Source: Acidimicrobiales bacterium (GTDB lineage Bacteria > Actinomycetota > Acidimicrobiia > Acidimicrobiales > SKKL01). Taken from it: DNA of 64,000 bases. A program made the position numbers and the translations under genes. The stretch lies in NCBI GenBank assembly GCA_034521975.1, contig JAXHLR010000005.1, forward strand, positions 248,001 through 312,000, written 5' to 3'. This document shows positions 11,530-19,676 of this stretch, piece by piece; within the stretch, counting starts at the first letter, position 1; each line of letters begins with the position of its first letter. Below the pieces are notes generated by a model that had not been told where the DNA came from, searched no databases, and saw only the letters and a list, made by a program, of their open reading frames with translations.

Positions 11530-12753
11530 TCAGGCTCCCGCCGGGGCGAGCTGGGGCAGCGATGGCCGGGAAGCGAGCCACTCGGCCTCGCGGTCGTTCT
11601 CCTTGCCGAGGCGCTTCAGCAGCGCCATGAACTCCTCCGCCGGCGGATGTGTGGTGAGTGCGGCGGCCAGCTCGAGGAACGGCGCCGAGGCCTCGCGCCG
11701 GTCCCGGTCGTAGCAGGCGAGGGCCTCGTCGAGGTCCGCCCGACCGGTCAGCGCCCCGTGGACCGCCCCCGCGAGCAGCTCGGCGTCGCGGAGCGCGTCG
11801 GTCATGCCGTGACCGGTCATCGGGTCCTGGTGGAACGCGGCGTCGCCGACGAGGGCCCAGCCCTGGCCGGCGGCGCGACGGACCTGGATCGGGAAGCGAA
11901 CACCGCCGCGCACACCGGTGGCGCGGCGGCGGTGGCGGGCGCGGCCAGCCAGCGCTGGGGACACCTCGTCGAGCAGCGTCTCGTGGCTGGCGGCGCGCTG
12001 GCGGCGTCCCGCGGCGAGCACCCGGTCGGCGCGCTCGGCGGGCACGCACACCCACACGTTGGCGAGGTCATCGTTGGTGGGGAAGACGCCGGCGAAGCCC
12101 GCGTCGCCCACGTGGAACTCGAAGCGGTGAGGGTCGAAGCCCTCGTAGTAGGCGTAGTGACATGAGCTGGCCGAGGGTCGCTGCTCGACGATCGGTGCCT
12201 CGACGGCACGCGCGACACGGGATCGGAGCCCGTCGGCGCCGATCACGACCTCGGCCGAGATCCGCTGCTCCCCACCGTCGGGGTCGAGCGTGGTCACCCC
12301 CGTGACCCGCCCCGTGTCGTCACGATCCAGCGAGGTGACCCGGGTCCTCAACCGCAGTTCGGCTCCCGCGGCGGCCGCCGCCGCGGCCAGCAGTGGATCG
12401 AACACCTGCCGCCGCGGCGCGAGGAGATGATCCACGCCGCCCTTGGCGTCGATCTCGCGAACCTGTTCGCCGCTCCCCGCACCCCGCAGCACTTGGCGGA
12501 TCGGTGGGGCGCCGCCGGACACCACCTCGTCGAGCAGACCCCACCGGGTCAGCTGGACGACCCCGCCGCGGGCGAGGGCGTGGGTGGAGAGCGTGTCGCC
12601 GGCGAGGTCGCTCCGGTCGACGACGACCACGTCGTGGCCGGCACGGGCGAGCAGCAGCGCCGTGGCCGCGCCCGCGCACCGTGCACCGACGACCACGACG
12701 TCGGCGTGGCGGTCCACGCCGTGCTGGGGGCTGAGCGAGCGGGTGATCTGCAT
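11530..12753 (-). CDS. FAD-dependent oxidoreductase (PHBH/geranylgeranyl-reductase-like)
   Basis: A 407-residue flavoprotein. ADVVVVGARCAGAATALLLA is the dinucleotide-binding site and GADGLRSRVARAVEAP is the group A monooxygenase DG motif. WALVGDAAFHQDPMTGHGMT is the GD motif that binds the FAD ribityl chain. It is of the type that hydroxylates or reduces isoprenoid or aromatic substrates; the substrate is unknown. The start MQITRSLS at 12753 is chosen because the FAD site follows 15 residues later. It is divergent from the GGDEF gene, sharing a short region with two GTGTGGGGACC repeats 21 bases apart. Confidence 0.87.
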   Translation of the reverse strand: MQITRSLSPQHGVDRHADVVVVGARCAGAATALLLARAGHDVVVVDRSDLAGDTLSTHALARGGVVQLTRWGLLDEVVSGGAPPIRQVLRGAGSGEQVREIDAKGGVDHLLAPRRQVFDPLLAAAAAAAGAELRLRTRVTSLDRDDTGRVTGVTTLDPDGGEQRISAEVVIGADGLRSRVARAVEAPIVEQRPSASSCHYAYYEGFDPHRFEFHVGDAGFAGVFPTNDDLANVWVCVPAERADRVLAAGRRQRAASHETLLDEVSPALAGRARHRRRATGVRGGVRFPIQVRRAAGQGWALVGDAAFHQDPMTGHGMTDALRDAELLAGAVHGALTGRADLDEALACYDRDRREASAPFLELAAALTTHPPAEEFMALLKRLGKENDREAEWLASRPSLPQLAPAGA

Positions 12754-12817
12754 GTATCCCACCCTGAAGGCACCACCCCGCCCAGGCTTGGAGTCGGTGT
12801 GGGGACCACCGGGGGAG

Positions 12818-14197
12818 GTGTGGGGACCGCGACCCGGCCCAGAGGGGACCACCGACCCTTGTGCGGGGCGGTTCCACAACCGACGATGGGCGGGTCCCGG
12901 CGTCCTTCACGCGGCCCGCGATGGAAAGGGAGTCACCACCGTCGACGCGCTCACCGGCTGCTTCAACCGGGCCACGGTGATGCACTCGCTCGAGACCTGC
13001 GTGGCCGGCCCCGACGAGTCGATCGCGGTGGTGTTCCTCGATCTCGACCGCTTCAAGGCCATCAACGACGAGCTGGGCCACGCGGCAGGCGACGAACTGC
13101 TCGTCCTGGCCGCCGAGCGCCTCCGCCGTGCGGTCCGACCCGGTGACATCATCGGCCGCCTCGGCGGTGACGAGTTCCTCGCCGTGTGCCGCGAGGTGGT
13201 GAACAAGGAAGAGGCGATCGCCATCGCCGAGCACGTCGCCGCCTCCATGTCCCGTGAGGTCACCCTCGACTGCGGAGTGATCGAACTGCGAGCCAGTGTC
13301 GGGGTGGAGTGGTCGGGAAGCGGAGGCCACTCCGCCGACGAGCTGGTCGCCCGCTCCGACGCCGCCATGTACGAGTCGAAGCGTCGGGGCACCGGTCGCG
13401 CCGTGCCCTACTCCGAGGTGCTGCGGCGACAGGAACACCCCAACCTGGGCGAGGAGCACGCCCTGCACCAGGCGATCGAACGAGGCGACCTGCACGTGCG
13501 CTTCCAACCGATCGTGCGCCTGGCCGCCGGCGACACCATCGGCTACGAGGGCCTCGTCCACTGGGCCGGACCCGACGGCGACAGCATCGCCGCCTCGGCG
13601 TTCATCGCCATGGCCGAGGACACCGGACTCATCCACGAGCTGGGGCTGGCCGCACGCGACGAGCTCATGTGCACCGCGGCACGCCACAGCGGGCGGGTGG
13701 GCGATGCCGACCGCTGGTTCTGCAACCTCTCGGCCCGGGAGCTGCAGATGCCCGGAGCCGTCGAGTCGATCCTCGACACGATCGACCGATCGGGACTGGC
13801 TCACCGCTCGGTGGTCGTCGACTTCCGCTGCGACGTCGGCCCAGACCAGCTCGAGCGAATGACCTCGGCCCTGTCCGAGCTGCGCGCCGCGGGGGTGGAG
13901 CTCGCGATCGACGACTTCGGCGAGGGTTGGGCGCCCCTGGAGCTCCTGCGGGCCGCCACACCGACCTGGCTGAAGCTCGCCCCCTCCGTCACCTGTTCGA
14001 CCACCACCGACCCCATCGCCGCCGGCATCGCCGGGGCCGCCATCGACCTCGCCGCTCGCCTCGGTGCGAGCGTGGTGGCCAAGGGGATCGAGTCGAGCGA
14101 ACAGCGCGACGCGCTCGTGGAGCTCGGCATCGAGCTCGGCCAGGGGCACCTGTTCTCCCCGGCCGCCCCCATCGAGACGTTCCTCGCCGCTCGCTGA
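12818..14197 (+). CDS. GGDEF protein with degenerate EAL domain
   Basis: A diguanylate-cyclase-type protein of about 459 residues. The first domain has DALTGCFNRATVM, FLDLDRFKAINDELGHAAGD and an intact RLGGDEF motif near residue 118, so c-di-GMP synthesis is plausible. The second domain is EAL-like but altered: YEGLVHW replaces E-A-L, DFRCDV replaces the usual E-I-T-E, and DDFGEGWAPLELLR resembles DDFGTGYSSL. Phosphodiesterase activity is doubtful, and this half may instead bind c-di-GMP. No sensor domain or membrane segment is seen. The start is uncertain: GTG at 12818 or 12797; no ATG lies close upstream in frame. Confidence 0.85.
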   Translation: MWGPRPGPEGTTDPCAGRFHNRRWAGPGVLHAARDGKGVTTVDALTGCFNRATVMHSLETCVAGPDESIAVVFLDLDRFKAINDELGHAAGDELLVLAAERLRRAVRPGDIIGRLGGDEFLAVCREVVNKEEAIAIAEHVAASMSREVTLDCGVIELRASVGVEWSGSGGHSADELVARSDAAMYESKRRGTGRAVPYSEVLRRQEHPNLGEEHALHQAIERGDLHVRFQPIVRLAAGDTIGYEGLVHWAGPDGDSIAASAFIAMAEDTGLIHELGLAARDELMCTAARHSGRVGDADRWFCNLSARELQMPGAVESILDTIDRSGLAHRSVVVDFRCDVGPDQLERMTSALSELRAAGVELAIDDFGEGWAPLELLRAATPTWLKLAPSVTCSTTTDPIAAGIAGAAIDLAARLGASVVAKGIESSEQRDALVELGIELGQGHLFSPAAPIETFLAAR

Positions 14198-15789: not shown

Positions 15790-15875
15790 CACGAAACCTG
15801 GGTGGGGCGATCCGCCCTGACCATACCAGCGCTATTGGCCATGTGGGGAATCTTTAGCTGTGCTTAACTGGTGGC

Positions 15876-17000
15876 ATGCAGCATCGGACCAGCGGGATCC
15901 CCAGCCTCGATGACCTCCTCGGGGGCGGGCTGGTGCTGGGCGACAACGTGGTCTGGCTGGGTGAGGCCCGCTCCGACGTCGATGGCGCGGCGGCCGCGTT
16001 CCTCGGACCCGACGATGCGGACCGACACCTCGTCTCGCTCGGCCCGCGCGCCATCGACGTGGCCGGTGGTGTCGCGGTCCACCGAATCGATCTGGCCACC
16101 ACCAGCCTCGCCGACCTCGAAGCGTTGCTCGTCGGCCACCACATCGTCGACGGTACCCGGCTCGTCATCGACGGGCTCGACGAGCTGCTCACCCATCTCG
16201 GTGCCGACGCCACCGTCGCCTTCTACCGGCGGATGTGTCCCCGGCTGCTCGACCTCGGCGCCATCGCCTACTGGACCGGCACCCGCGGCCAGCTGAGTCC
16301 CGCGGTCATCGGTGGCGTGTCCAAGATCGCACAGTGCGTGCTCGAACGGCGCGACGACCGGCTCCGGATCACCAAGGCCGAGGGCCGCCCCAATCGGGTC
16401 CAGGGCATGCTGGTCGACTTCGCCGCCGATCCCGACACCGGCTCGCTCCGGGTCGGACGCGAGCACGCCGTCGGGCGCCTCGGCGAAGGCCTGCGCCGCA
16501 TCCGCAACGACCGCAACCTCACCCAGGGCCAGCTCGCCGCCCTTGCCGGCATCACCCCGGCCGCCATCTCCCAGGCCGAGACCGGCAGGCGCGGCCTCTC
16601 CCTCGACACCGTCGTGCCGCTGTGCGAGGTCCTCAGGGTCACCGTCGACGAGCTGCTCGGCGGCCAGGGACGGATCGACCATCAGTTGGTCCGCCACGAC
16701 CGCAGGCGCGACGACGCCACCGGCCGCGGCACCGGGGTGGTGCCCCTCTTCGACGACCCGACCATGTCGGTGCGGGCCTTTCTCACCGTCCTCGACCCCG
16801 ACGAGTCGGGCGCTCCCACCTTCGCCCACAAGGGCATCGAGCTGATCCTCGTGGCCGATGGCCTGGTCTTGATCGACCTCGGCGACCAGACCCCGGTGTT
16901 GCGGGCGGGCGACGCCCTGATGGTCAACCGGGTCCCGATACACAGGTGGGAGAACCTGCGGCGAGACCCTGCCCGGCTGTTCTGGGTCGTCGCCGACTAG
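15876..17000 (+). CDS. Regulator: KaiC/RecA-like pseudo-ATPase, XRE helix-turn-helix, cupin
   Basis: A 374-residue protein. Residues 1-190 look like a KaiC/RadA-type RecA fold (GIPSLDDLLGGGLVLGDNVV), but the Walker A loop is GEARSDVDG, with no G-K-T/S. A Walker B-like strand (TRLVIDGLDELL, 95-105) is kept. Residues 203-262 are an XRE helix-turn-helix (RNLTQGQLAALAGITPAAIS). Residues 275-374 are a cupin (GIELILVADGLVLIDLG, DALMVNRVPIHRWEN). XRE-cupin proteins usually repress genes in answer to a small molecule; the added inactive RecA-like domain is unusual. The ATG follows TTAACT by six bases, suggesting a leaderless mRNA. Confidence 0.8.
   Translation: MQHRTSGIPSLDDLLGGGLVLGDNVVWLGEARSDVDGAAAAFLGPDDADRHLVSLGPRAIDVAGGVAVHRIDLATTSLADLEALLVGHHIVDGTRLVIDGLDELLTHLGADATVAFYRRMCPRLLDLGAIAYWTGTRGQLSPAVIGGVSKIAQCVLERRDDRLRITKAEGRPNRVQGMLVDFAADPDTGSLRVGREHAVGRLGEGLRRIRNDRNLTQGQLAALAGITPAAISQAETGRRGLSLDTVVPLCEVLRVTVDELLGGQGRIDHQLVRHDRRRDDATGRGTGVVPLFDDPTMSVRAFLTVLDPDESGAPTFAHKGIELILVADGLVLIDLGDQTPVLRAGDALMVNRVPIHRWENLRRDPARLFWVVAD

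Positions 17001-17031: not shown

Positions 17032-19676
<2,645 letters not shown>

Follow-up and report, generated by a model that had tools for sequence, protein, structure and literature searches.

A KaiC/RecA-like domain without Walker A in a predicted XRE-cupin regulator encoded beside glutamate dehydrogenase in Actinomycetota

The locus and the layout of the protein

The stretch of DNA analysed here (the window) comprises 64,000 nucleotides of a contig from an Acidimicrobiales bacterium. An open reading frame (ORF) on its forward strand at positions 15876-17000 (ATG at 15876, stop codon at 16998-17000) encodes a 374-aa protein that starts with MQHRTSGIPSLDDLLGGGLVLGDNVVWLGEARSDVDGAA. The protein is composed of a degenerate KaiC/RecA-like domain at residues 1-198 (15876-16469, + strand), recognized by profile-profile comparison (hhalign), VIA-align and the invariant residues of 45 sequences, an XRE helix-turn-helix (HTH) at residues 206-260 (16491-16655, + strand; Pfam HTH_3, E 1e-13), and a Cupin_2 barrel at residues 303-372 (16782-16991, + strand; Pfam Cupin_2, E 2.8e-9, and alignment). 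HTH_3 followed by Cupin_2 is the Pfam layout of XRE-cupin regulators, and for residues 1-201 neither Pfam nor NCBIfam gave a significant family. The ORF is not a chance one, because full-length orthologs spanning 36-79% identity to the window protein were found together with 45 homologous N-terminal domains that lack Walker A. The gene is present in a single copy in its own genome, where the only other match is an XRE-cupin protein at 28% identity. In the cupin, H318 is nearly invariant in an alignment of 13 full-length proteins and the position of H356 is not conserved in most members; since this second histidine is not retained, classical metal binding is unlikely, and the domain is, judging from the alignment, probably not a classical metal cupin.

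Convergent with the regulator gene lies gdhA (17032-18372, - strand, GTG start), which encodes a type-I (NADP) glutamate dehydrogenase (GDH; ELFV_dehydrog, E 1.2e-87) whose nearest solved structure is 5gud/5ijz; its start was assigned from a conserved 10-residue protein stretch. Elsewhere in the window, inspection by eye of an ORF at 12443-14197 (+ strand) showed a GGDEF motif that is intact, while its C-terminal part resembles a degenerate EAL domain, with EGLVHW for EALxRW.

A KaiC/RecA-like fold that has lost its P-loop motif

The preliminary description had read the ORF as a protein with a RadA/KaiC-type opening, a P-loop without lysine, and a fusion to an XRE HTH and a cupin. The opening is indeed of the KaiC/RadA type (SGIPSLDDLLGGG), and the Pfam domains bear out the fusion. 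The loss at the P-loop goes further than had been described: GDNVVWLGEARSDVDG occupies the place of the KaiC motif GR.TLV.G.PG.GKT, so the entire G-x4-GK[ST] is gone and not just the lysine. According to the sequence and the profile alignment, the former P-loop segment at residues 22-38 (15939-15989, + strand) reads GDNVVWLGEARSDVDGA instead of Walker A.

The family was defined as 45 collected N-terminal domains from Actinomycetota, window protein included. A class-wide search yielded 11 more full-length proteins from other genomes at 37-50% identity, and a scan of genome contigs with the window sequence added one further full-length relative at ~79% identity. In the alignment of 13, the N-terminal domain is conserved along its whole length and Walker A occurs in none. 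A phylum-wide profile search found the domain in further classes and in two architectures, the XRE-cupin form of ~400 aa and a fusion to PPDK_N of ~876 aa (PF01326, E 2e-44). The tree resolves an Acidimicrobiia-type XRE clade, a second XRE clade and a single PPDK clade (support 100/99). The PPDK_N fusions L087, L088, L090 and L091 measure 876-882 aa, with L090 represented by an internally shortened ORF of 566 aa. Viral contigs contained no relatives, and plasmids gave matches to the PPDK_N part only.

The motif GxxxxGK[ST] is missing in all 45 members, which sets the family apart from active KaiC-type ATPases. This uniform loss is also what would favour regarding the domain as a decaying, functionless relic. 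Against that stand five residues, D23, N24, C121, P122 and Q153, that are invariant in all 45 domains and kept down to 21% identity with the order of secondary-structure elements preserved; in addition, G7, D12, G22, V26, L124 and A131 are nearly invariant. The relic explanation is thus hardly credible, and the pattern of conservation indicates that the N-terminal domain is under purifying constraint.

Descent of residues 1-200 from RecA/KaiC proteins, also claimed beforehand, was borne out by several comparisons. When the family profile was compared by hhalign with 25 Walker-A-positive KaiC domains from the same phylum, it matched KaiC with 97.2% probability (E 3.3e-11) over 195 columns end to end, and the P-loop region aligned without gaps to the KaiC GxxGxGKT. 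Sixty column-shuffled control profiles reached at most 1.4% probability and the reversed profile 0.3%. The match does not depend on the opening motif alone, because a profile deprived of its first ~44 residues still reached 89%. By clade, the KaiC probability was 97% for the Acidimicrobiia type, 88% for the other XRE proteins and 40% for the PPDK clade, and the PPDK clade domain matched the other two clades at 99.5-99.6%. A search of PDB sequences with the 45-sequence profile (hmmsearch) ranked KaiC first (E 2.4e-4).

Structure prediction points the same way at modest confidence, and an unrelated predicted fold, which would have spoken against RecA descent, was not obtained. AlphaFold2 was run with two sequences only (the window protein and L003), and the resulting shallow models are of low to medium confidence, with a pLDDT of about 60-85 in the core (residues 25-145) and 48 overall. 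For this model, the top rank in VIA-align was KaiC (Z 12.3, 3.1 A, 145 residues, model residues 7-172), RAD51 scored Z 10.4, and Foldseek listed the KaiC relative FlaH at probability 1.00; for a model of the N-terminal part only, the best Foldseek matches were BcsE assembly chains and KaiC. These results confirm that residues ~1-198 belong to the KaiC/RecA-like fold superfamily, with a RecA-like core in KaiC strand order.

With the KaiC/RadA-Sms/FlaH proteins (PF06745) the family shares the fold, the (S/T)G(I)xxLDxxLGG opening, the strand order and a C-terminal (L)RVxKAEGR segment that aligns with the KaiC KxRG region, but it lacks both Walker A and the KaiC Glu-Glu pair after strand 2, is fused to DNA-binding and cupin domains, and mostly falls below Pfam detection: PF06745 did not match the window protein and matched five of the 45 members weakly (best E 4.5e-5). 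Eight of the 45 also matched PAXNEB (Elp4) weakly (best E 2.8e-4), and in the window protein this match was confined to the opening motif (residues 6-24). Elp4-6 are RecA-fold proteins of Elongator, and by analogy they offer a possible parallel for the loss of the P-loop. Membership in MEDS (PF14417) was rejected, given no match of the window protein and marginal matches in three of the 45 members (best E 0.0088), and MEDS was not found elsewhere in the genome. Similarly, the protein is not a PuuR equivalog, as it scores 33.2 bits with PRK09943 against a cut-off of 211 bits. It is therefore a member of the KaiC/RecA fold, but not a KaiC ATPase, not PuuR and, by the tests made, not MEDS.

The nearest functional precedents are BzdR, MEDS/DcmR and the N-terminal domain (NTD) of BcsE. 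BzdR, a sensor of benzoyl-CoA, combines an XRE HTH with a shikimate-kinase-like sensor domain in which Walker A is retained (PMC3602430). It likewise places a nucleotide-binding enzyme fold as a regulatory module on a metabolic promoter, but the P-loop fold is another one, sits C-terminally and has a conserved Walker A, there is no cupin, and the targets differ (PMC3602430). MEDS/DcmR proteins (PF14417; PMC11507031) also carry a sensory domain in HTH regulators, although in another domain order and with simple hydrocarbon derivatives as known or predicted ligands. The BcsE NTD has a RecA/KaiC-like fold with a diverged Walker A and serves in oligomerisation and protein binding (PMC7439463); BcsE, however, regulates cellulose secretion and has neither an HTH nor a cupin. 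PuuR-type XRE-cupin repressors resemble the C-terminal HTH-cupin half (NCBIfam PRK09943, E 3.6e-8), but have no N-terminal KaiC-like domain and act on other targets. For the GDH link described below, the nearest precedent is GltC-RocG of Bacillus subtilis, where glutamate metabolism is controlled and GDH is tied to a regulator as well, although GltC is an unrelated, LysR-type protein and its target is gltAB. No description of such an architecture, or of an XRE-cupin regulator of gdhA, was found in the open-access literature searched.

Predicted operators and the link to glutamate dehydrogenase

A 15-bp palindrome, ATTAGC-N3-GCTAAT, forms a predicted operator 5' of the regulator gene. The main predicted site, TTTAGCTGTGCTTAA (15853-15867, + strand), ends 8 bp before the start codon and is backed by the strict motif and by family conservation, and a second, weaker predicted site, CATACCAGCGCTATT (15822-15836, + strand), lies exactly 31 bp upstream. 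An AGC-N3-GCT palindrome (consensus ATTAGCAATGCTAAT) precedes the regulator in all 17 Acidimicrobiia-type members, where 1.2 would be expected and the maximum among 500 shuffles was 5. The offset of -31 for the second site stands out across 16 members (z 9.6; next best offset 4.4). A search of the 3.3-Mb genome for the strict form WWAGCN3GCTWW returned a single instance, at 15854-15866, immediately 5' of the start codon of the regulator; G656, G655, G087 and G157 each have one as well, always at the regulator. The same pattern written backwards, used as a control, occurs three times in the own genome and 4 to 11 times in the other four. As far as sequence goes, the gene thus has a palindromic operator at its own promoter, as sought for XRE-cupin regulators. 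A wider regulon was discarded, since genome searches with the strict operator gave almost no further sites.

GDH is the most frequent conserved neighbour of the family (13 of 21 neighbourhoods). Of 42 family loci, 21 have it at a distance of no more than 1.5 kb, as against none of 19 plain XRE-cupin loci and none of 30 Walker-A-positive KaiC loci, which rules out GDH proximity as a general trait of either group. Within the own genus and family, GDH is convergent with the regulator at 22-44 bp; it is convergent with one small gene in between in G027, and divergent in G087 and G157. In the second XRE clade and the four PPDK_N fusions (L087, L088, L090 and L091), GDH is immediately upstream on the same strand, the fusion genes lying directly 3' of it. 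Both groups of loci use a second GDH type (type II), which is ~34% identical to the window GDH and closest to GudB (7mfm/3k8z) and Thermotoga GDH. The link between the domain and GDH has outlasted a change of GDH type, because in G304 the gene adjoining the regulator is of type II and the type-I gene lies elsewhere. The linkage therefore holds for two GDH types and for either fusion partner, XRE-cupin or PPDK_N. This gives a more definite shape to the conjecture of the preliminary description that the former ATPase could act in sensing or in docking a protein partner; that description had included neither gdhA nor the operator nor the PPDK_N architecture. In 8 of 21 loci (L070-L077), the regulator has as a neighbour, on either side, a small protein whose C-terminus resembles a C4 zinc finger and which looks like DksA/TraR.

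Paired sites were sought with a scoring matrix trained on other genomes only, the window's site being left out. The 64-kb window holds just two pairs spaced by 31 bp, one at the regulator (15822+15853, score 26.8) and one at the gdhA promoter (18417+18448, score 23.0), and the next independent pair scores 1.5. The gdhA pair, which also emerged from the genome-wide pair search, consists of predicted sites on the - strand at 18448-18462 (ATAAGCGCCGCTTGT in + strand reading) and, 31 bp away, at 18417-18431 (ACAAGCACCGCTTGT in + strand reading). Contig C6 of the own genome gave two more pair matches, which is no more than chance would produce (8-9 per strand for the control pattern). In the sister genome G656, the whole-genome pair search returned the regulator and gdhA promoters only. 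G087 and G157 have a single pair 5' of the regulator, facing the divergent gdhA and hence in a shared divergent promoter, while G654, G655 and G027 have a site at the regulator only. The gdhA genes of G002, G105 and G034 showed no paired site, and no gdhA-promoter sites were found in more distant Acidimicrobiia, where there was no excess (2 of 11 against 0.7 expected). As distant Acidimicrobiia lack sites at gdhA, the case for this target rests on the present genus (two genomes), the divergent promoters of G087 and G157, and the operon promoters of the second XRE clade. The interval that contains the gdhA site pair (18373-18522) separates gdhA from a divergent gene at 18523; the product of the latter resembles, by eye, a PspC-domain membrane protein, and this gene might be co-regulated with gdhA.

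In the second XRE clade, TGAAGC-N3-GCTTCA, which has the same core, is found 5' of the GDH-regulator operon in eight of nine loci, followed at once by a -10-like TAnnnT, and the ninth locus has a near-match. An unbiased palindrome search in this clade recovered AAGC-N3-GCTT in 8 of 9 loci, whereas the largest count for any palindrome in shuffled sequences was 5. In the PPDK_N-fusion clade, which has no HTH, the motif is absent 5' of GDH (0 of 4). A highly conserved inverted repeat, GACGCAACGGCGCGTC, is located 31.5-32.5 bp 3' of the operator palindrome and 5' of the type-II GDH gene in L080, L081, L082, L084, L094, L095 and L096 (and L085). It is close to where transcription probably starts, and might serve as a second site for a protein or form a hairpin in the 5'-UTR.

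These data bear on the explanation that GDH proximity is inherited synteny devoid of functional meaning and that the regulator controls only itself. GDH is missing from the vicinity of half of the loci and the strict motif is mostly confined to the regulator's own promoter, as this explanation would have it. Yet the linkage persists in three clades of the domain, with either GDH type and in differing orientations, two genomes have paired operators at the gdhA promoter, and the core motif precedes the GDH-II operon in eight of nine loci of the second XRE clade, which makes mere synteny improbable.

Possible roles of the dead KaiC domain

From the computed fold, loss of Walker A, conservation, operator sequences and gdhA linkage, we infer DNA binding by the protein, the direction of control, the signal and the respective tasks of the dead KaiC domain and the cupin. 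The gene probably encodes an autoregulated transcription factor, likely a repressor, with the adjacent gdhA as its main other target and the dead KaiC domain as a sensor or assembly module. The XRE HTH would bind the palindrome ATTAGC-N3-GCTAAT, and since the sites are 31 bp, or three helical turns, apart, two dimers would be placed on the same face of the DNA over the core promoter. The closeness of the sites to the -10 element and the start codon suggests repression of the target promoters. The dead KaiC domain cannot bind ATP through a P-loop; it would most likely sense a signal linked to glutamate, 2-oxoglutarate or NAD(P)H, and/or bring the dimers together, and the cupin may provide a second ligand site.

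The fixed 31-bp spacing of the site pair would also fit a narrower role, in which the dead KaiC domain only oligomerises two dimers on DNA and the cupin alone senses a ligand, and the BcsE NTD, RecA-like with a lost Walker A, does homo-oligomerise (PMC7439463). Nevertheless, a role in DNA cooperativity is insufficient, because PPDK_N fusions without an HTH keep the domain, with the same five invariant residues, and are still encoded beside GDH; assembly as the sole function is accordingly rather unlikely. The retention of the domain in these fusions beside GDH also speaks for a role tied to the signal and not confined to DNA binding.

Another candidate, suggested by analogy and in our judgement unlikely, is a trigger-enzyme arrangement, in which the dead KaiC domain would dock GDH and the abundance or substrate occupancy of GDH would gate DNA binding. 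RocG controls GltC via a transient complex in Bacillus subtilis (PMC6794564), other RecA folds without Walker motifs bind proteins, for example the BcsE NTD (PMC7439463), and the linkage holds whichever GDH type is present and whether the effector domain is XRE-cupin or PPDK_N. A single docking surface for two GDH types that share only ~34% identity would, however, be demanding, genomes without an adjacent GDH retain the domain too, and the case tying GDH to the regulator consists of genomic linkage and operator sequences only.

A broader form of the sensor role, which we put forward tentatively as possible but somewhat doubtful, is that the dead KaiC domain is a dedicated GDH-coupled sensor, acting by docking or through the substrate/product pool, with interchangeable XRE-cupin or PPDK_N outputs. 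The PPDK_N half would then be a phosphotransfer-type output, and the fusion of the dead KaiC domain to PPDK_N, an unnamed architecture, may act on GDH or pyruvate metabolism. If true, the glutamate/2-oxoglutarate node in Actinomycetota would be controlled in parallel at the transcriptional and the post-translational level.

To conclude, the family is a clear example from bacteria in which a KaiC-type ATPase fold has lost its P-loop and been built into a transcription factor whose target and operator are predicted; it seems that an old ATPase fold was turned to the control of nitrogen metabolism. That a PPDK_N fusion has the same domain, with the same invariant residues and again GDH as a neighbour, suggests a sensor module that Pfam and NCBIfam do not name. 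For the deep-branching, mostly uncultured Actinomycetota, the protein provides a candidate regulator of GDH.
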